44,202 nucleotides of DNA from an uncultured Burkholderiales bacterium. Lineage in GTDB: Bacteria; Pseudomonadota; Gammaproteobacteria; Burkholderiales; Burkholderiaceae_C. The stretch's first letter is position 1; each line of letters starts with the position of its first letter. The notes under the pieces were generated by a model that was not told the origin of the DNA, did not search any database, and worked only from the letters and a program-made list of their open reading frames with translations. The stretch is taken from contig CAISPG010000089.1 in NCBI GenBank assembly GCA_903887325.1, positions 1 through 44,202 of the forward strand, in the 5' to 3' direction. Shown piece by piece: positions 7,335 to 33,432 of this stretch. Position numbers and translations under genes: made by a program.

Positions 7335-8504
7335 ATGAAAACATTGTTGAATCTGCGCGCCCTGTTGATAGCCTTGGGCATGTGCGCTTTGTCTGTGCAA
7401 GCGCAGGAAGCTTTCAAAATCGGACTGATACTGCCCATGACGGGACAACAGGCAACCACCGGCAAACAGATTGAAGCCGCCGCGCGTTTGTTCATGGCGC
7501 AAAACGGCGACAAGGTGGCGGGCCGCAAGATTGAACTCATCATCAAAGACGACGGCGGCATTCCGGATGCAGCCAAGCGGATCGCGCAAGAGTTGGTGGT
7601 GAATGACAAAGTCGGCGTGTTGGGCGGTTTCGGCTTGACGCCGCTGGCGCTGGCCACCGCGCCCATCGCTACCCAATCTAAAACGCCGATGGTGGTGATG
7701 GCTGCGGCCACTTCCATCATCACTGAGGCTTCTCCTTATATTGTTCGCACCAGTTTCACCTTGGCGCAATGTTCTGTCGCCATGGGCGACTGGGCACCGA
7801 AAAACGGCATCAAGCGTGTGGTGACCTTGGTCAGCGATTACGGTCCCGGTATTGACGCAGAACGCTTCTTCAAAGAACGTTTTTTGCTCAATAGCGGCCA
7901 GGTGATTGAAAGCCTGCGTGTGCCTTTGCGCAACCCCGATTTCGCACCGTTTTTGCAAAAAGTGCGCGACCTCAAACCCGATGCGCTGTTTGTGTTTGTG
8001 CCCTCGGGCGCGGGCGCGGCTGTGATGAAACAGTTTCTTGAGCGCGGCATGGACAAGGCCGGTATCAAATTGATAGGCACCGGTGACATGACAGACGATG
8101 ACCAGCTCAACGACATGGGCGACGGTTCTTTGGGTGTGGTGACCAGCCACCATTACTCGGCCATGCATCCAAGCGCGGTCAACAAGAAATTTGTCGAAGC
8201 CTTCAAGAAAGCCAACCACGGCATGCGCCCCAACTTCATGGCGGTCGGCGGTTACGACGGCATGCGCGTGATTTACGAAGCCTTGAAAAACACCAAAGGC
8301 GGACAGGGCGGCGGCGACGCCTTGCTGGCAGCCATGAAAGGTCAGATTTTCGAGAGCCCGCGCGGTCAAATATTCATTGATGCGCAAACCCGTGACATCG
8401 TGCAAAACATTTACTTGCGACGCGTCGAGAAAAAAGACGGCGAACTCTATAACGTCGAGTTCGATGTGATCAAAGAAGTCAAAGACCCCGGCAAGACCAA
8501 GTAA
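7335..8504 (+). CDS. ABC transporter substrate-binding protein (branched-chain/aromatic-acid type)
   Basis: This 389-residue periplasmic receptor begins with a Sec signal peptide (about 23 residues, cleavage likely after VQA). It continues with FKIGLILPMTGQQATTGKQI, typical of the leucine/isoleucine/valine-binding type I fold (Peripla_BP_6). GGAG precedes the ATG. It heads a gene run containing matching LivH-, LivM-, LivG- and LivF-type components and then the protocatechuate 4,5-cleavage enzymes. The ligand is therefore probably an aromatic acid such as protocatechuate or a precursor rather than an amino acid. The ligand assignment is from context only. It is distinct from the amide/urea-type receptor at the left edge. 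Confidence 0.88.
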   Translation: MKTLLNLRALLIALGMCALSVQAQEAFKIGLILPMTGQQATTGKQIEAAARLFMAQNGDKVAGRKIELIIKDDGGIPDAAKRIAQELVVNDKVGVLGGFGLTPLALATAPIATQSKTPMVVMAAATSIITEASPYIVRTSFTLAQCSVAMGDWAPKNGIKRVVTLVSDYGPGIDAERFFKERFLLNSGQVIESLRVPLRNPDFAPFLQKVRDLKPDALFVFVPSGAGAAVMKQFLERGMDKAGIKLIGTGDMTDDDQLNDMGDGSLGVVTSHHYSAMHPSAVNKKFVEAFKKANHGMRPNFMAVGGYDGMRVIYEALKNTKGGQGGGDALLAAMKGQIFESPRGQIFIDAQTRDIVQNIYLRRVEKKDGELYNVEFDVIKEVKDPGKTK

Positions 8505-8509
8505 ATCGC

Positions 8510-9373
8510 ATGCTGACTCTGCTGTTTGACGGTGTCGCCTACGGCATGTTGCTGTTTGTGCTGGCCATTGGTTTGTCCATCACGCTGGGCTTGATGAACT
8601 TCATCAACCTGGCGCACGGCGCGTTTGCCATGGCCGGTGGTTATACGCTGGTGCTTCTGATGCAAAAAGCGGGCTGGCCGTTTGTGCCTTGTTTGCTGAT
8701 GTCGTTTTTGGTCAGCGCGGTATTGGGTTTGTTGCTCGAGGTCACGCTCTACAGACGCATGTACAACAAACCGCATTTAGACCAGGTGTTGTTCTCCATC
8801 GGCTTGACCTTCATGGCCGTGGCGGCGGTGGATTATTTTGTCGGCTCTACCCTGCAGCTGGTGCAACTGCCTGAATTCTTAAAAGGCCGCACCGAACTCT
8901 GGGACGGCGCATTGGGCATGGGCCATTACCGATTGGCCATCATTGCGGTGTGCGCATTGTTGGCGCTGGGTTTGCAATGGTTGTTGGTGCACACCCGGTT
9001 CGGGGCGCAATTGCGTGCTTCGGTGGATGACCGGCGCGTGGCAGCAGGCATGGGCATCAACGTCAACACCATCATCATGGCGACGTTCGCTGTCGGCTCA
9101 GGGCTGGCAGGGTTGGGCGGTGCATTGGGCGCAGAGGTACTGGGCCTTGACCCGATATTCCCGCTCAAGTTCATGATTTATTTTTTGATTGTGGTGGCCG
9201 TGGGCGGCACCAGTTCGCTCACAGGCCCGTTGCTGGCGGCACTGCTCTTAGGCATTGCCGATGTGGCCGGTAAATACTATGTGCCCAAACTCGGCGCATT
9301 CATTGTGTACAGCTTGATGGTGTTGATACTCATGTGGCGACCGCAAGGCTTGTTCAGCCGGGGTAACACATGA
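8510..9373 (+). CDS. Branched-chain-type ABC permease, LivH-like
   Basis: This 287-residue integral membrane permease has about eight hydrophobic segments. It carries the conserved LivH opening ITLGLMNFINLAHGAFAMAG and the later ALGAEVLGLDP and VVAVGGTSSLTGPLLAALLLG segments. It forms the membrane channel with the LivM-like partner that follows. It starts 5 nt after the receptor stop and ends in a 4-nt ATGA overlap with the next gene, so the pair is translationally coupled. Substrate specificity is set by the receptor and cannot be read here. Confidence 0.9.
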   Translation: MLTLLFDGVAYGMLLFVLAIGLSITLGLMNFINLAHGAFAMAGGYTLVLLMQKAGWPFVPCLLMSFLVSAVLGLLLEVTLYRRMYNKPHLDQVLFSIGLTFMAVAAVDYFVGSTLQLVQLPEFLKGRTELWDGALGMGHYRLAIIAVCALLALGLQWLLVHTRFGAQLRASVDDRRVAAGMGINVNTIIMATFAVGSGLAGLGGALGAEVLGLDPIFPLKFMIYFLIVVAVGGTSSLTGPLLAALLLGIADVAGKYYVPKLGAFIVYSLMVLILMWRPQGLFSRGNT

Positions 9374-10329
9374 ACGCGGTCAGCCGCAGTTTGCGGGCGT
9401 ATTCGAAGCCGCGTTTATGGGAAGCCATCGTGTGGCTGTTGCTGTTCACTTTGCCCTGGGCCTTGCCCGGTCATTCGCAACTCATCAGCGAAATCACCAT
9501 CATCGGCTTGTTTGCTATTTCGCTGGACTTGGTCTTGGGTTACAGCGGCATTGTGTCTTTAGGACACGCGGCGTTTTTCGGTACAGGCGCTTATGCGGCC
9601 GCGCTGTTTGCCAAACACATCAATCCAGACCCGTTAACAGGCTTGGTGTTTGCAAGCTTGGTCACGGCTTTGCTTGGCTTGGTGTGCAGCCCCGGCATAT
9701 TGCGCGGCTCAGACCTCACCCGTTTGATGGTGACACTGGGCATTGCGTTGATATTGCAAGAACTGGCCAACAAAATGGACCACATCACCGGCGGTGCTGA
9801 TGGTTTGCAAGGCGTGCTCATGGGGCCGGTGCTGGGTCGGTTTGAATTTGATTTGATGGGTCAAACAGCGGCTTGGTATGCACTGGTCATCACGCTGTTG
9901 GTGTTTTTGTTATTGCGTCGCTTGGTGTATTCGCCGTTTGGTTTCAGCTTGAAAGCCATACGTGATAACCGCTTGCGTGCGCAGGCCATTGGTATTCCCG
10001 TGCACGCACGGCTGATCACGGTGTACACCTTGGCAGCGGCTGTGGCGGGTTTGGCGGGTGGCATGCAAGCGCAGACCACCGGTTTTGCCTCGCTGGATGT
10101 GTTTGGCTTTGACCGTTCCGCCGATGTGTTGTTGATGCTGGTGATAGGCGGCACCGGTTGGTTGTGGGGCGGTCTCATTGGCGCGGTGGTGTTCAAAACC
10201 TTGCACAGCCTGGTGTCTGCGTTGACACCACAGTACTGGACTTTCTGGATAGGTTTGTTTTTGGTGTTGTTGATGTTGGTCGGGCGTGAAAAATTATTGC
10301 GTCCCTGGACTTGGGGGCGGCGCTCATGA
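9370..10329 (+). CDS. Branched-chain-type ABC permease, LivM-like
   Basis: This 319-residue inner-membrane protein has about nine hydrophobic segments. It carries the LivM signature SLDLVLGYSGIVSLGHAAFF near residue 55 and the cytoplasmic coupling segment SPFGFSLKAIRDNRLRAQAI, which contacts the ATPase. It would pair with the LivH-like permease as a heterodimer. The ATG overlaps the LivH-like stop (ATGA), and its own stop overlaps the LivG-like start the same way, which is typical of stoichiometric expression of the importer. Confidence 0.9.
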   Translation: MNAVSRSLRAYSKPRLWEAIVWLLLFTLPWALPGHSQLISEITIIGLFAISLDLVLGYSGIVSLGHAAFFGTGAYAAALFAKHINPDPLTGLVFASLVTALLGLVCSPGILRGSDLTRLMVTLGIALILQELANKMDHITGGADGLQGVLMGPVLGRFEFDLMGQTAAWYALVITLLVFLLLRRLVYSPFGFSLKAIRDNRLRAQAIGIPVHARLITVYTLAAAVAGLAGGMQAQTTGFASLDVFGFDRSADVLLMLVIGGTGWLWGGLIGAVVFKTLHSLVSALTPQYWTFWIGLFLVLLMLVGREKLLRPWTWGRRS

Positions 10330-11087
10330 ACCAAGACACCGTGCTGTCTTGCAGCGGATTGCTGAAAACATTTGGTGGCATCACCGCAACCGACCACGTC
10401 AGTTTGCAATTGCAGCGTGGTGCGCGTCATGCACTCATCGGCCCAAATGGTGCGGGCAAAACCACCTTGATCAATTTGCTCACGGGCGTGTTGACACCGA
10501 CCGCTGGCCGCATTGAATTGCTGGGTGAAGATATCAGCCACTTGCCACCTCACCAGCGAGTGCAACGCGGCTTGGTTCGCACTTTTCAAATCAACCAATT
10601 GTTTGATGGACTAACACCATTGCAAACTTTGGCGATGACGGTCTCGCAACAACTCGGTTTGGGTGCAGCTTTGTGGCAAGCGCTAGGCCGCGATAGCCGT
10701 GTCGCAGAGCGCTGCGAAAAACTATTGGATCAATTCCATTTGAGCGAAGTGATGAACCAAGCGACCATGCAGTTGGCCTATGGCAAACGCCGCTTGCTGG
10801 AAATGGCGATTGCCTTGGCCAGTGAACCGCGCGTGTTGTTGCTGGACGAACCGGTGGCCGGTGTGCCCGCTGGTGAGCGCGAAGAGTTGCTGCAAACCGT
10901 CGCCAATTTGCCCGCCGATGTCAGCGTCTTGTTGATTGAACATGACATGGACTTGGTGTTCAGCTTTGCCCATCGCATGACCGTGCTGGTGAACGGCGCG
11001 GTGTTGACCGAAGGCACGCCAGCGCAAATTGCAGCCGACCCGCGCGTGCGCGAGGTGTACCTTGGCCACGGAGACATACATGACTGA
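10326..11087 (+). CDS. ABC transporter ATP-binding protein, LivG-like
   Basis: This cytoplasmic ATPase of 253 residues has Walker A GPNGAGKTT and Walker B VLLLDEPVAGV, followed by a switch histidine in LLIEHDMDLVF. The ABC signature is slightly unusual: LAYGKRRLLEMAIAL, where most LivG proteins have LSYGxQR. The ATG at 10326 overlaps the preceding TGA; an in-frame start at 10311 would extend it needlessly. It energises import together with the LivF-like ATPase that follows. Confidence 0.9.
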   Translation: MNQDTVLSCSGLLKTFGGITATDHVSLQLQRGARHALIGPNGAGKTTLINLLTGVLTPTAGRIELLGEDISHLPPHQRVQRGLVRTFQINQLFDGLTPLQTLAMTVSQQLGLGAALWQALGRDSRVAERCEKLLDQFHLSEVMNQATMQLAYGKRRLLEMAIALASEPRVLLLDEPVAGVPAGEREELLQTVANLPADVSVLLIEHDMDLVFSFAHRMTVLVNGAVLTEGTPAQIAADPRVREVYLGHGDIHD

Positions 11088-11790
11088 TTTATTGCATGTG
11101 GAGAATCTGACCGCTGGTTATGGCGAAGCGGTGGTGTTGAACCAGGTCAGTTTTTCTTTGGCGGCGGGCGAAACCTTGGCGCTCTTGGGGCGCAACGGAA
11201 CCGGCAAAACCACGTTGATCAACACGCTGGCTGGTGCCACCCGCCAACACGCAGGCAGCATCACTTTGGATGGTGTGGCTTTGCACCGCTTGGCTTCGCA
11301 TGCCCGCGCGGCCGCAGGCATAGGTTGGGTGCCGCAAGAGCGCAATATTTTCAAATCTCTCAGCGTGTTGGAAAACCTGACGGCGGTGGCCAGGCCCGGT
11401 GCATGGACAGCGCAACGCGTGTTTCAGATGTTTCCTCGTTTGGCTGAACGTCAAACCAATATGGGCAACCAGTTGTCAGGCGGTGAACAGCAAATGCTGG
11501 CCGTCGGTCGTGCTCTGGTGTTGAACCCTAAGTTGTTGTTATTGGATGAACCGCTGGAAGGCTTGGCCCCCATCATTGTGGAAGAGTTGTTGCAGGCCAT
11601 ACGCCGCATCACACGCGAAGAAGGCATGTCGGCCATCATCGTTGAGCAACACCCGCAAGCCATTTTGGCCATCAGCCACCAAGCCGTGGTGTTGGACCAA
11701 GGCCAGGTGATTCACAGCGGCATTGCATCCGCTTTGTTGCAGCAAACAGCATTGCTTGACCAGTTGCTGGGTGTGAAAAACCATGCTTGA
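11080..11790 (+). CDS. ABC transporter ATP-binding protein, LivF-like
   Basis: This second ATPase of the importer has 236 residues. Motifs are Walker A GRNGTGKTT, signature LSGGEQQMLAVGRAL, Walker B LLLLDEPLEGLAP and the switch histidine in IIVEQHPQAI. The ATG at 11080 has GGAG 7 nt upstream and overlaps the LivG-like end by 8 nt. Its own 3' end overlaps the start of a prepilin peptidase gene by 8 nt, which is unexpected for a transport operon. Confidence 0.9.
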   Translation: MTDLLHVENLTAGYGEAVVLNQVSFSLAAGETLALLGRNGTGKTTLINTLAGATRQHAGSITLDGVALHRLASHARAAAGIGWVPQERNIFKSLSVLENLTAVARPGAWTAQRVFQMFPRLAERQTNMGNQLSGGEQQMLAVGRALVLNPKLLLLDEPLEGLAPIIVEELLQAIRRITREEGMSAIIVEQHPQAILAISHQAVVLDQGQVIHSGIASALLQQTALLDQLLGVKNHA

Positions 11791-28543: not shown

Positions 28544-29461
28544 ATGAAGCACTTGCAGCGATTTCAACTGGCCTGTGTGCTTGTCTTGCTGGCGGCCTGC
28601 GCCACAGTGCCGCCCTCGGTCAAACCCGTGCTGCCTGTCACCGAGAGCTCACCGCCGGTGGCGCCCACAACATCGCTGCCGCCTAAAAAAACCCCCAGGC
28701 TGGGTCTGGCGCTGGGCGGCGGGGCCGCGCGCGGCTTTGCCCACATAGGCGTGTTGCAGGTGTTGGAAGAAGAAGGCATCAAGCCCTCGCTCGTGGTTGG
28801 AACCTCGGCCGGCAGCGTGGTGGCGTCTTTTTATGCCAGCGGCAAAACCGGCCAACAGTTGCAATGGCTGGCCGACACCATGGACGAAACCCAGTTCACC
28901 GACTGGGCCAACCCGTTCAGCGGTCGGGGCATATTGCGCGGTGAGGCACTGGGTAAATACATCAACAGCCAGTTGAACGGCATGAAGATTGAGGATATGA
29001 AGATGCCGCTGGGCATCGTCGCCACCGATTTGCGTACCGGCGAGGGTATTTTGTTCAGGCGCGGTGACGTCACCACCGCCGTGCGCGCTTCCAGCGCCGT
29101 GCCTTCGGTGTTCGAGCCGGTGCAAATTGCGGGTAAAGACTATGTCGATGGCGGCCTGGTATCGCCGGTACCGGTGCGCTTCGCCAGACAAATGGGCGCG
29201 GATCTGGTGTTGGCGGTTGACATTTCCAGCCGCCCCGAAGATGCCAAAACCACGGACATGCTCAAAGTGCTGTTGCAAACTTTCAGCATCATGGGCAAGA
29301 GCATCAGCCAGTTGGAATTGGCGCAGGCCGATGTGGTGGTGCGACCCGCTTTGCCGGATATAGGCAGCACCGAATTTTCGGCGCGCAAGAAAAGCATAGA
29401 GGCCGGACGTGCGGCCATGAAGCAGGCCATGCCGCAGTTGCGGGCTTTGCTGGCGCAGTAA
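28544..29461 (+). CDS. Patatin-like phospholipase lipoprotein (RssA-like)
   Basis: This 305-residue protein starts with a lipoprotein signal: lipobox VLLAAC with acylated C19, and no Asp at +2, so outer-membrane sorting is likely. A Pro-rich linker leads into the patatin domain. The oxyanion loop is LGGGAARGFAHIGVL, the nucleophile S88 lies in GTSAGS, and the second dyad residue D202 is in YVDGGLVSP. It would hydrolyse lipid acyl esters at the periplasmic face. It is monocistronic and convergent with the phasin gene across a pair of hairpins. Confidence 0.9.
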   Translation: MKHLQRFQLACVLVLLAACATVPPSVKPVLPVTESSPPVAPTTSLPPKKTPRLGLALGGGAARGFAHIGVLQVLEEEGIKPSLVVGTSAGSVVASFYASGKTGQQLQWLADTMDETQFTDWANPFSGRGILRGEALGKYINSQLNGMKIEDMKMPLGIVATDLRTGEGILFRRGDVTTAVRASSAVPSVFEPVQIAGKDYVDGGLVSPVPVRFARQMGADLVLAVDISSRPEDAKTTDMLKVLLQTFSIMGKSISQLELAQADVVVRPALPDIGSTEFSARKKSIEAGRAAMKQAMPQLRALLAQ

Positions 29462-29586: not shown

Positions 29587-30135
29587 TTAACGCTTGCGTG
29601 AAGCAGGCTTGGCAGTGGCTGTGGCAACGGTTGATGTGGCCAGGGCTTGCATATTGGCTTCAGCGGCTTCAGTGGCTTGTTTCACTGCTTTTTGCACGCT
29701 TTCAATAGCGGTTTGGCTGGCGGTCATGGCTGACTTCATCATGGCAACAGCGCTTTCAGAACCGGCGGGGGCGTTTTTGGAGACAGAGTCAACCAGACCG
29801 AAAACAGATTTTTGTGCTTCAGCAGCTTTGCCTTCGACAGCTTCGCCGAATTCCTTGCTGGTGGTCGAAGCGATTTCGTAGACGTGGCGGCTGAAAGCAA
29901 CGGCTTTTTCGCTCAGGGGTTGCAGGTAACCGGCTTGCAAAGCCATCAGTTCCTGCACGTCTTTGACGTTCATGGCTGCATGGGCTTGTGACTGGGTGTC
30001 GCCAATCGCGGCTTTGGCTGCGGCCATGTTCAGTTCAACCATTTTTTCAACGCCTGCAAAGGCTTTTTCGGTCAAGCCGAACAGGGTTTCCATATTGGCT
30101 TTTTGGGCGGCGATCATTTGTTCTGCGGTCATCAT
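29587..30135 (-). CDS. phaP: Phasin family protein (polyhydroxyalkanoate granule-associated)
   Basis: This 182-residue helical protein would coat polyhydroxyalkanoate granules. It begins [20 protein letters not shown] and continues [20 protein letters not shown], typical of the PHA_gran/phasin_2 family, with an Ala/Lys-rich C-terminal tail (TAKPASRKR). The ATG at 30135 follows AAGGAAACCACC; the adjacent ATG at 30132 is equivalent, and a longer frame to 30168 is not needed. It has its own promoter (30211-30238) and tandem terminators. Its presence implies that the host stores PHA, although no synthase gene is in the window. Confidence 0.92.
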
Positions 30136-30210
30136 GGTGGTTTCCTTCAAGGTGGTTAAGAGATTCACTCGGGACTGCGTGCTTTCATGTTGCGCCGCAG
30201 CATGATTCGA

Positions 30211-30347: not shown

Positions 30348-32297
30348 TCAACGAAAGCCTTTCACCAGTTCCACCCAGACATTTTCGTGGTTGTAACTGC
30401 TACCCGACAACTGTGAAGGTACGCTGCCTATGCGTCTACTGATGCCCAGATTCACACGCCATTGATCCGGGCCTTCCCAATACAGGTCGATTCCAGCACC
30501 GGCCAAGTGGGCTTGGTTGCTGTCTGAGGTGTAAGGTGATTGGTAGAGCGTTAGCCAACCCGCGTCGATAAACAAGCTGGTATAAAAATCACCACTGACA
30601 TGGAATGCCGGGCCGGGCGGGCCCAGCCGGTGTTTGACCTCAGCCGTCAACAAGTGTCCGGCGTCTCCCGATAACACCCCAGGTGCATAGGCTCTGACAC
30701 TGTGCGCGCCGCCCATGGACATTTTTTGCGTGCTGTCCAGGTTGTGGTCTGTCCATTGCGACTGCCAGTTCAGCGACCACAGGCTGTCACCCACAGGCAG
30801 TTGCAGGCCGGCATTCAGGTTGAACTTGTAGAAACGGCCTTGGGTATCGGCGGTTGCGCTGTCCAACGCCAGTGCTGTGGCATTGTTGAAATCCACATAA
30901 CCCAGCCCGGTATCCAGATTAAGCCACTGCTGGCCAGCGCCTGAGAGGTTGGTGTGCATCATGCCCAGATCGAAATGCAGCACTTGCGCTTGGCGGTCGT
31001 TGTCGGTGCCGCTGGTGTCTTCCAAGTCGCGCATGGTCTGTCGGTCATATTGACTGCGCCAAAGCAGTTGCCACTGCGGAGTTCGCAACACCGGCTGCTC
31101 CAGCCAGATGCTGTGTTGTTTGGCGCTGCCATAGGCATTCAAGGAAGCGGCGCTGCCGCCCAAGTGGTAGCTTAAATAACTGTTGGCCACACCGATCCGC
31201 AGGCCACCACTGTCTTGCCAGGGAAACTCATAGGCCCAGCGGGCGAATTGCATGCGTCCTGAGCTGATCAGCAGGTTGACATCCAGCGAATCATCCGCTT
31301 TGAACACTTGGCGGTGTTGTTGGTGCCAGCCGGTTTGCCCCTCGCCGCTGTAACTGCTGCCGTGGTTGTCCTGGCTGAATTCGGCAGTCCAAGTCCGGTT
31401 GCCGGGCTTGGCATCTTCCGGTTGCAACAGAACAGGTCGGCGACTGATGCTGTCGTGTATGCCCGGCAAGCTGTGCTGCGCTTGCGGGTAGGCGGTCACT
31501 TGTTCTGAACTGACCAAGGCAGGCTGTAACAGCTGTGGCGTCTCCGGCTGAGTGATTTGGAATTGGGGATTGTTCAAGGCCGGGACGACTGGTAGAGCTG
31601 AGCTGTCTGTGGAGTCGCTGGGCGTGTTCGAGAAGTCAATTTGGTTTGCCGTTGTGATTGAGATCAGTGCATCGTTGGCCATTGCATCCTGACTGATGTT
31701 TGAGTCCTGTGAAGCATCGGTGGCGACAACCAGAGACGCAGGCGTCAATACATCATTCAGGCCGCTTGCCGTCGTATTCAGCACCGTGGTGATATTTGGC
31801 ACAGCGGTGCTGATGGAACTGGTGATGCTGACGCTGTTGGTCGTAAATGCATAGCTGATTTGGTAACCCAGTTGGTCCGAGTACAAACCGCTGGCCACCG
31901 CAGAATGTGTGCCCACGTCCGAGCCGTCCAGCACAAAACTGACGCTGCCCGACAGCGTTTTGCTCAAGCTGCCAGGGTCTGTGTAACTGGCCAGCGTGGT
32001 CGTGGTGGTGCCGTCATAAGTCTGGCTGCCTGAAGCAATGGCGGTGATGGTCAGCGGCGTCATAAATGCGCGAAGCAAGGGCGCGGTATAGCCGCTGTAA
32101 ATGATCCAAGGCGTGGTGAAGTTCCAACTGCTGACCGTGGTGACAGATTTCCCAGTTTGGGTGGATTGTTGGATCACCGCCTGACCGCTGACCACTTGTG
32201 CACCTTGCGGGGCGGCTTCAACCAGCTTGGCCAGTGTTAACGGAAACAACCAAGCCAAATTCGAGGCCATGCGCGGATGGCGCAGCATGCGGATCAT
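30348..32297 (-). CDS. TpsA-TpsB chimera: two-partner-secretion exoprotein start fused to FhaC/ShlB-type beta-barrel
   Basis: This is an uninterrupted 649-residue frame. Residues 1-60 look like the start of a filamentous-haemagglutinin-type TpsA: signal peptide ending near VEA, then APQGAQVVSGQAVIQQSTQTG. Residues 61-85 (TPWIIYSGYTAPLLRAFMTP) and 85-160 (including SQTYDGTTTTTLASYTDPG) match C-terminal TpsA regions with YDG-type repeats. After a low-complexity Ser/Thr/Gln linker (160-300), residues 301-649 are a TpsB translocator barrel. They have the conserved GGAHSVRAYAPGVLSGDAG motif (R535) and FIDAGW (D578). The usual TpsB signal peptide, plug helix and both POTRA domains are absent. The C-terminus is GFR rather than a terminal Phe. 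The start at 32297 lacks a clear ribosome site; ATGs at 32288 and 32270 are alternatives. It could be a deletion-fusion relic or a one-piece secreted or surface protein. Confidence 0.75.
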   Translation of the reverse strand: MIRMLRHPRMASNLAWLFPLTLAKLVEAAPQGAQVVSGQAVIQQSTQTGKSVTTVSSWNFTTPWIIYSGYTAPLLRAFMTPLTITAIASGSQTYDGTTTTTLASYTDPGSLSKTLSGSVSFVLDGSDVGTHSAVASGLYSDQLGYQISYAFTTNSVSITSSISTAVPNITTVLNTTASGLNDVLTPASLVVATDASQDSNISQDAMANDALISITTANQIDFSNTPSDSTDSSALPVVPALNNPQFQITQPETPQLLQPALVSSEQVTAYPQAQHSLPGIHDSISRRPVLLQPEDAKPGNRTWTAEFSQDNHGSSYSGEGQTGWHQQHRQVFKADDSLDVNLLISSGRMQFARWAYEFPWQDSGGLRIGVANSYLSYHLGGSAASLNAYGSAKQHSIWLEQPVLRTPQWQLLWRSQYDRQTMRDLEDTSGTDNDRQAQVLHFDLGMMHTNLSGAGQQWLNLDTGLGYVDFNNATALALDSATADTQGRFYKFNLNAGLQLPVGDSLWSLNWQSQWTDHNLDSTQKMSMGGAHSVRAYAPGVLSGDAGHLLTAEVKHRLGPPGPAFHVSGDFYTSLFIDAGWLTLYQSPYTSDSNQAHLAGAGIDLYWEGPDQWRVNLGISRRIGSVPSQLSGSSYNHENVWVELVKGFR

Positions 32298-32357
32298 GGG
32301 AAATTCAACAAAAACAATAAAAAATCATGAATTAAATGTTAATAAAAAATAAAACGA

Positions 32358-32384
32358 TAAATTCAATAATTAACTACTAAATAC
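32358..32384 (+). repeat. Right copy of an imperfect AT-rich direct repeat
   Basis: This 27-bp partner of 30286-30313 lies in the AT-rich stretch (about 32300-32400) upstream of the chimeric gene. No gene or clear promoter was resolved in 32298-32508, which is strikingly AT-rich compared with its surroundings. Confidence 0.6.
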
Positions 32385-32508
32385 AATTTGTTGCAGGTTT
32401 GCGTCAGAAAACGACTTCTATTGGCGGACGTAATTGCCGCTTATTGGGCTGAATGGCGATAGCCGGGCCTGCCAGGCGCAGGTTTTGCCAAGTCACCAAT
32501 AATCCGTG

Positions 32509-33432
32509 ATGCATATTTATTTCGCTGCCACGCACATACAACAACTGCCCGAAGGTCACCGCTTTCCCATGGGCAAATACGAGTTGCTTCGACAACGCCT
32601 GGCGGCTGAATTAGCGCAACTGCAATTGCAATTGGCCGAACCCGCCAGCGACGGGGAACTGGCCTTGGTGCACACGCCGTCTTACATAGATGCGGTGGCG
32701 CAAGGCAGTTTGAGCGATGCAGCACAACGCGAAATCGGCTTTCCCTGGTCAGAGGGCATGGTGGAGCGGGCCCGCCGTTCGGTCGGCGCCACCATCAGCG
32801 CGGCGCGCACCGCCATGAAAGAAGGTGTGGCGGCCAATCTGGCCGGTGGCACCCACCATGCTTATGCCGACAAGGGCGGTGGGTTTTGTGTGTTCAACGA
32901 CGTGGCGGTGGCGGCGCGTTTGCTGCAAGCCGAAACCGCGCGTCATCAACGAAAAGCTTTGCAAGTCGCGGTGATTGATTTGGACGTGCACCAGGGCAAT
33001 GGCACAGCGCATATTTTTCAAACCGATGACAGCGTGTTCACCTTGTCCATGCACGGCGCGAAAAATTTTCCGTTCCGCAAGGAAAGCAGCGACATAGACA
33101 TTGAATTGCCCGACGGTTGCGGCGACGACGACTATCTGGCGCAATTGCAGACCGCTTTGCAACAACTGGAGCAGCGCTGCCAACCCGGACTGGTGTTTTA
33201 CCTGGCCGGTGCCGATCCGCACGAAGGCGATCGACTCGGTCGCTTGAAACTCAGCTTTGAAGGACTTCGTCAACGGGACCAAATGGTGCTGCAATGGGCG
33301 CGTGAGAAACGCATTCCGCTGGCCATGGCCATGGCGGGTGGTTACGGCAAAGACATCGCCGACACGGTGCAAGTACAGATCAACACATTTGCGCTGGCCT
33401 ATGCGTCTTGGCAACACTGGCAAAATCGCTAG
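32509..33432 (+). CDS. Histone-deacetylase-family amidohydrolase
   Basis: This 307-residue member of the arginase/deacetylase fold (acetylpolyamine amidohydrolase / AcuC-like) has a zinc site formed by D and H in VIDLDVHQGNG and D in LAGADPHEGDRLG. The catalytic His-His is in LAGGTHHAYADKGGGFCVFND. It would remove acetyl groups from small amines or proteins in the cytoplasm. The start is ATG 32509, with GTG 32506 adjacent; no ribosome site is obvious. It opens a tightly spaced + strand run that continues to at least rmuC. Confidence 0.9.
   Translation: MHIYFAATHIQQLPEGHRFPMGKYELLRQRLAAELAQLQLQLAEPASDGELALVHTPSYIDAVAQGSLSDAAQREIGFPWSEGMVERARRSVGATISAARTAMKEGVAANLAGGTHHAYADKGGGFCVFNDVAVAARLLQAETARHQRKALQVAVIDLDVHQGNGTAHIFQTDDSVFTLSMHGAKNFPFRKESSDIDIELPDGCGDDDYLAQLQTALQQLEQRCQPGLVFYLAGADPHEGDRLGRLKLSFEGLRQRDQMVLQWAREKRIPLAMAMAGGYGKDIADTVQVQINTFALAYASWQHWQNR

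Follow-up and report, generated by a model that had tools for sequence, protein, structure and literature searches.

A gene that joins the two proteins of a two-partner secretion pair, TpsA and TpsB, in one chain occurs in a small group of Comamonadaceae bacteria. We consider its product probably to be an autotransporter in its own right, i.e., a one-chain descendant of a two-partner system that bears a TPS domain, has no POTRA and exports its passenger through the barrel of the same chain. This reading is supported by the single frame, the single origin, the full-length barrel, the missing POTRA domains, the fixed locus and purifying selection.

The fusion gene of the window

The window, i.e., the whole stretch of 44,202 nucleotides that was analyzed, carries an uninterrupted frame of 649 codons (Table 1). 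The original prediction had described one intact frame of this length, and translation confirmed it on the minus strand, which had been left unstated; read on the plus strand, the same region contains many stops. The TpsA-type beginning that had been claimed, a signal followed by the start of a TPS domain, was also recovered: residues 1-55 agree at 53 of 55 positions with the start of P0014, an undeleted family member of 1242 aa in which Pfam finds a whole PF05860 TPS domain. A profile built from the TPS domains of the family matched the window frame at E 8e-8, with the match extending beyond the TPS stub, and the objection that residues 1-160 might have no TpsA similarity was not borne out. 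Signal peptide cleavage would fall before APQGAQ; the hydrophobic core of the signal peptide was measured on four relatives and not on the window protein itself. The YDG-type region was found as predicted, below the Pfam threshold (E 0.03), and the TpsB barrel matched the ShlB/FhaC/HecB family over residues 300-605 (E 3.4e-16) and bore the two expected motifs, SVRxY and FxDxG. No POTRA model of Pfam matched the window protein, and the linker occupies the site at which TpsBs carry their POTRA domains. NCBIfam gave no match to the window protein, and a PDB search with this protein alone (E up to 1) returned a sole relative, the CdiB transporter 6wim. A scan for promoter and terminator signals scored no better than on shuffled sequence.

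Table 1. Parts of the fusion gene in the window
Feature	Position	Strand	Remarks
Fused TpsA-TpsB gene, 649 codons plus stop	30348..32297	-	Internally deleted copy; parent fusion roughly 1240 aa
Sec-type signal peptide, residues 1-28	32214..32297	-	From sequence
TPS-domain N-terminal stub, residues 29-55	32133..32213	-	Remainder of the domain deleted
Deletion junction, 2-bp overlap (CA)	32132..32133	-	1779 nt (593 codons) fewer than L003
YDG-type repeat, residues 80-154	31836..32060	-	Last piece of TpsA passenger kept; below Pfam cut-off
Low-complexity linker, residues 155-301	31395..31835	-	35% Ser/Thr/Ala
TpsB/ShlB-type barrel, residues 302-649	30351..31394	-	Complete relative to canonical TpsB barrels
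SVRAY motif, residues 533-537	30687..30701	-	Counterpart of the TpsB L6 VRGY motif
FIDAG (FxDxG) motif, residues 576-580	30558..30572	-	

Distribution of the fusion

With the window frame as query, about 5.8 billion proteins yielded 12 matches, three of which (P0009, P0010 and P0012) are ordinary TpsBs with POTRA. When a full-length relative, L003, was the query, 13 proteins of 1073-1322 aa among the best 120 of 3892 matches combined PF05860 (TPS), PF07581 (GLUG) and PF03865 (ShlB) in one chain. L003, the one relative found in a scan of genome contigs, belongs to a Comamonadaceae MAG (Jr-7aug17-269) and contains a fusion frame of 1241 codons; contig C108 of genome G008 agrees with it in length and in the position of the match, and the two are taken to be one and the same contig. 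The original prediction had called for the same fusion to be sought in related genomes, and it is present as a single long frame, at the same locus, in three congeners (G008, G401 and G402), whose orthologues measure 1241, 1240 and 1225 aa. The genus of the window was covered by 84 genomes, not all of them complete, and among these the three congeners and the window's own genome (G000, short form) carry the fusion; in addition, G397 has one fusion that runs off the end of its contig, and G006 retains a remnant of the barrel only. This remnant (L070 5896-6774, on contig C11; 292 codons, or 304 from stop to stop) lies at the same locus as a lone barrel without signal or passenger.

That the fusion is confined to the window's lineage rests on searches that were not exhaustive. 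A protein search with the barrel only, which covered proteins of about 683-2172 aa, gave 12 matches, all in the fusion family; since it missed at least P0021, P0023 and P0024, which are members of fitting length, it did not exhaust the family. The family-wide search of genomes scored two candidates per genome and is a weak test, and the order-wide ShlB search found frames of up to 802 aa among the matches listed. Six long barrel frames of 751-1176 aa (L064-L069), found in the same genus or family, were considered as further POTRA-less fusions and rejected: all six have POTRA, and none has a TPS domain in frame.

Several entries of the family are trimmed or broken, namely the window copy, P0004, P0007, P0008, P0011 and the G006 remnant, which suggests either a locus that readily loses sequence or errors of assembly there. 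The defects of P0004, P0007, P0008 and P0011 are in-frame internal deletions, a shifted frame or a cut end; P0004, for instance, falls 130 aa short of P0022, a close relative, through an in-frame internal deletion.

The barrel and the missing POTRA domains

We scanned 16 fusions with Pfam (the window protein, 12 that are full-length or nearly so, P0002, P0004 and P0006). ShlB was found in all 16, GLUG in 14, TPS (PF05860) in 12 and YDG in 8. As the original prediction had held for the window protein, the POTRA domains are missing: no POTRA family matched any of the 16, even at E up to 0.1, whereas POTRA_2 matched all three control TpsBs. The only barrel family matched was ShlB; the barrel of type Va autotransporters was not matched. 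In a profile-profile comparison, 12 full-length fusions aligned with 17 canonical TpsBs over 347 columns reaching the C-terminus (36% identity, E 1.5e-70), and outside the barrel, including the POTRA region, there was no alignment. The window protein lacks two columns that are occupied in most of 16 canonical barrels. The TpsB barrel is thus predicted to be complete in both the window protein and the family. One of six tblastn alignments, that of L003 to the canonical locus L071, reaches back to residue 846 of the fusion and thereby covers the last part of POTRA2, so the linker may retain a short segment of the border between POTRA2 and barrel.

Among the loci and proteins collected, 105 entries (a redundant count) have a barrel match of more than 280 residues, and 71 of these have POTRA. 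The remaining 34 are entries of the fusion family, three entries of the G006 remnant, and L002/L033, L025 and L059; these last either are truncated by the end of a contig or fetched stretch or have such an end no more than about 300 bases away. At the VRGY-type motif of L6, every one of the 16 fusions reads VRAY or LRAY, and the strict VRGY is absent. Strict FxDxG occurs in seven of the 16, i.e., the window protein and six others; the canonical sister TpsB of L071 reads FIEAG at this site.

Genomic locus and origin

The insertion site lies between a gene that we take from its sequence to be phasin-like (29587..30168, minus strand) and one that is presumably histone-deacetylase-like (HDAC-like; 32506..33432, plus strand). 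The HDAC-like gene was matched in 74 of the 84 genomes of the genus, and the best 30 loci were examined. Six of these hold the fusion or its remnant, 23 are empty, and in one the phasin-like gene was not found. At the 23 empty loci the phasin-like and HDAC-like genes are about 150-420 bases apart, and neither the start nor the barrel of the fusion was matched. Six empty intergenic regions (176-240 bases) aligned with the phasin side of filled sites; to the other side they showed no alignment except for one weak match. The very A+T-rich segment upstream of the fusion start (32298-32395) has no match in these six empty sites. A presumed patatin-like lipoprotein gene (28544-29461, plus strand) near the phasin-like gene also stands beside most empty sites and is therefore independent of the fusion. 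An assembly join of two neighboring genes, which had been named as a finding that would undo the prediction, was rejected as the source of the fusion, since the fusion recurs across several assemblies at one conserved, syntenic locus.

A maximum-likelihood tree was built from 82 barrels (60 with POTRA, 18 fused and 4 neither); barrels shorter than about 285 residues (P0007 and P0008 among them), P0001 and identical sequences were left out. All 18 fused barrels formed one clade with support of 100/100, including P0002, P0003, P0005 and P0006, which have no TPS domain and were labeled as fused because they lack POTRA and had been collected in the initial homology search. The sister group (98/82; join 97/86) consists of POTRA-bearing TpsBs of G402, G397 and G006, together with a barrel in which no POTRA is visible, from the genome of the window itself (contig C24, close to its end). 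The fused clade contains deep splits, and the G006 remnant nests inside it. When the fusion was compared with two canonical pairs (L071 and L122), it matched tpsA up to fusion residue 751-754 and the barrel of tpsB from about fusion residue 850-900; in canonical L071, TpsA continues into further repeats and TpsB starts with a signal and POTRAs. On present evidence, a tpsA-tpsB pair appears to have been fused once, in the ancestor of a subclade of the genus, and we infer that the alignments are accounted for by one event in which the distal repeats were lost together with the tpsA stop and the N-terminal part of tpsB. The original prediction had internal deletions fusing a tpsA-tpsB operon in frame: the fusion of the pair stood, and the deletion in the window copy was dismissed as its cause. 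At L071 itself (7413-11417; contig C10 of G006), the canonical tpsA is split between a frame of 549 aa and one of 765 aa, and the tpsB downstream of it is intact.

Selection on the fusion

To judge from the trimmed and frameshifted entries and from G006, which is left with its 292-codon barrel remnant, the fusion could be a non-functional leftover, drifting toward loss, from a deletion that took place between tpsA and tpsB. We regard this as highly improbable, considering that 12 proteins from four sources (1155-1322 aa) have TPS, GLUG and a complete barrel, that the fused clade is deeply split, and that the folded parts show low dN/dS. In pairs among G008, G401 and G402 (NG86), dN/dS was 0.17-0.25 for TPS, 0.11-0.12 for GLUG, 0.18-0.35 for YDG and 0.23-0.34 for the barrel; these ratios are rough, since synonymous distances reach 2.8 and some pairs are close to saturation at synonymous sites or beyond it. 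For the linker, the values were 0.51 and 0.46, and the third pair was not computable. Purifying selection on the fusion outside the linker (dN/dS 0.11-0.35) is supported. Distances between TPS domains and between barrels were correlated among 12 proteins (r 0.60; reached in 0 of 5000 permutations), the barrels being more variable than the passengers (mean p-distance 0.46 vs. 0.24-0.30).

Secretion model and relation to known type V systems

The known TpsB-family barrel has 16 strands. In the model that we favor, tpsA would have lost its distal repeats and stop and the downstream tpsB its signal, N-terminal helix region and POTRA domains, joining the TpsA passenger via a low-complexity linker to a whole TpsB barrel. 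Sec would export the chain, BAM would insert the C-terminal barrel, the linker would thread the pore, and the TPS/GLUG/YDG passenger would leave via its own barrel and remain attached to the surface as an adhesin-like rod. With passenger and barrel covalently tethered, recruitment of the TPS domain by POTRA would be unnecessary. In published work, the recognition step is described as TPS-POTRA binding (PMC5422565), and transport by FhaC is reported to require the barrel, L6 and both POTRAs (PMC9355242). Since FhaC reportedly needs both POTRAs, a barrel without them might not translocate. We see even chances that the fusions are a functional branch of type V secretion in their own right, in which fusion made the POTRAs dispensable, these domains then serving recruitment only and not translocation.

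Alternatively, a canonical TpsB that has POTRAs and is encoded in the same genome may export the passenger in trans, with the fused barrel acting only as an anchor or plug. The full-length fusions do retain the TPS domain, which is the part that binds POTRA; canonical TpsBs are present in G402, G397 and G006, and there is a barrel piece in the window's genome; and the report on FhaC fits a need for POTRAs. However, no second TpsB barrel lies beside the fusion in the window contig or in the G401 and G402 stretches, and the C-terminal barrel would need to follow a passenger already threaded through a different pore. The NPNG site of the TPS domain also differs, which may mean altered recognition. 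We therefore consider export in trans unlikely.

At this site, the fused rows of the alignment read NPAG (10 of 11) or NPSG (1 of 11), whereas the other rows read NPNG in 123 of 153, with 30 departures; the rows of the alignment are related to each other and possibly misaligned in some cases. The 11 fused rows are 13 minus two that do not show the motif, most likely because it is deleted there, and the 153 are the 157 counted as canonical minus L090-L093, which are cut pieces of fusion loci. NPNG has been called crucial for folding and secretion (PMC5422565), and its replacement in the fusions may reflect a lost recognition constraint. Since the fusions descend from one ancestor, the replacement counts as one observation. 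In P0014, the equivalent site is residues 113-117.

Returning to self-export through the fused barrel, we compared the family with known systems. Like type Vb pairs (FhaB/FhaC, HMW1A/HMW1B and CdiA/CdiB), it has a TPS domain and a TpsB-type barrel: searched against the PDB, a profile of the 16 fusions matched EtpA, 2odl (the HMW1 adhesin, according to PMC5422565) and a heme/hemopexin-binding protein through its N-terminal domain, and two CdiBs through its barrel, which carries the VRAY or LRAY motif. Twelve of the 16 have the TPS domain of type Vb, and the window copy holds a 27-residue stub of it. Unlike type Vb, in which passenger and translocator are two chains, the fusion is one chain, with NPAG or NPSG in place of NPNG where aligned. 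TpsB proteins (ShlB/FhaC) have two POTRAs before the barrel and are stated to contain POTRA domains (PMC3297439), and CdiB is treated as having them (PMC7644211), whereas Pfam detects POTRA in none of the 16 fusions. Type Vd (PlpD and FplA) likewise unites a passenger and a TpsB-like barrel (PMC3297439, PMC6555100); it is described as the one-chain relative, with one POTRA and a patatin-like lipase passenger (PMC3297439, PMC8151025, PMC10778856, PMC6555100) and has been given the name "fused two-partner secretion" (PMC3297439, PMC10778856, PMC6555100). The family differs from it in having no POTRA and a TPS/GLUG/YDG passenger. With type Va, the family shares an N-terminal passenger, a linker and a C-terminal barrel in one chain with no POTRA of its own, but the type Va barrel is reported to be 12-stranded (PMC8151025), unlike the TpsB-type barrel of the fusions. 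"noNterm" Omp85 proteins are reported to have a barrel of the Omp85/TpsB superfamily without POTRA (PMC4104836); they have no N-terminal extension, whereas a large TpsA passenger precedes the barrel of the fusions. No TPS-domain fusion without POTRA was found among the listed titles and abstract openings of the open-licence literature, outside which most subscription papers fall. On the features tested, we file the family, as a sequence-based assignment, as a putative type V variant that fits the definition of neither Vb nor Vd. TpsA and TpsB are here literally one protein, with no POTRA found in it, and, if the passenger is exported, the family separates two roles of POTRA, namely capture of the substrate and assistance during its passage. 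Surface display is a further possible use, for which the fusion could provide a compact scaffold of natural origin.

Deletion and mosaic barrel end of the window copy

Relative to L003, which is a relative and not its actual parent, the window gene lacks 593 codons of the passenger, in frame. More than one deletion had been predicted in the window protein; the junction at residue 55/56 was confirmed as the only one seen, and a second at about residues 160-300 was rejected, the stretch 155-301 being the family linker, which is 74-230 aa long in 16 members. The internal deletion appears to be a separate event, later than the fusion and not its cause. The original prediction had also offered a one-piece surface protein that displays its own passenger: the full-length fusions are indeed single chains, self-display would follow from the model above, and the window copy is probably a later, deleted derivative. 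This short form retains the signal, YDG, linker and barrel, and would be either a pared-down allele that displays only the YDG domain and linker or one on its way out.

Residues 1-55 and most of the remainder match P0014. In block-wise comparison, identity of the window barrel is P0014-like (0.90-1.0) and then P0003-like (0.95-0.97), the switch falling at or just after SVRAY, with the P0003-like part at about 30351-30700 of the minus strand. Because of this switch, the window gene is also read as a recombinant between alleles or a chimera of them.

An assembly join is possible as the explanation of the window's own deletion and mosaic end, which would then be an artefact of mixed strains; we find this doubtful, and it would concern the window copy only. 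The source genome is a draft of 142 contigs, the barrel shifts between allele types at VRAY, and an odd join with an inversion is seen at the end of its contig C24. Yet P0001 has exactly the sequence of the window protein, and the cluster to which it belongs (90% identity) represents three contigs, the longest of 3175 bases, which therefore do not include the 44-kb window contig. The identity argues against the accident of a single assembly, although shared reads may still underlie it, and not all three contigs need carry the exact short form. The junction itself has an overlap of 2 bp relative to L003, the longest word common to both flanks nearby is 10 bases, and no repeat beyond this word was found that would account for the deletion; the one tandem repeat in L003 lies outside the gene. 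At the end of C24 (L033 2566-3783), YDG repeats on the plus strand adjoin a minus-strand barrel of canonical type ~360 bases from the contig end, an arrangement that looks like an inversion or a misjoin.
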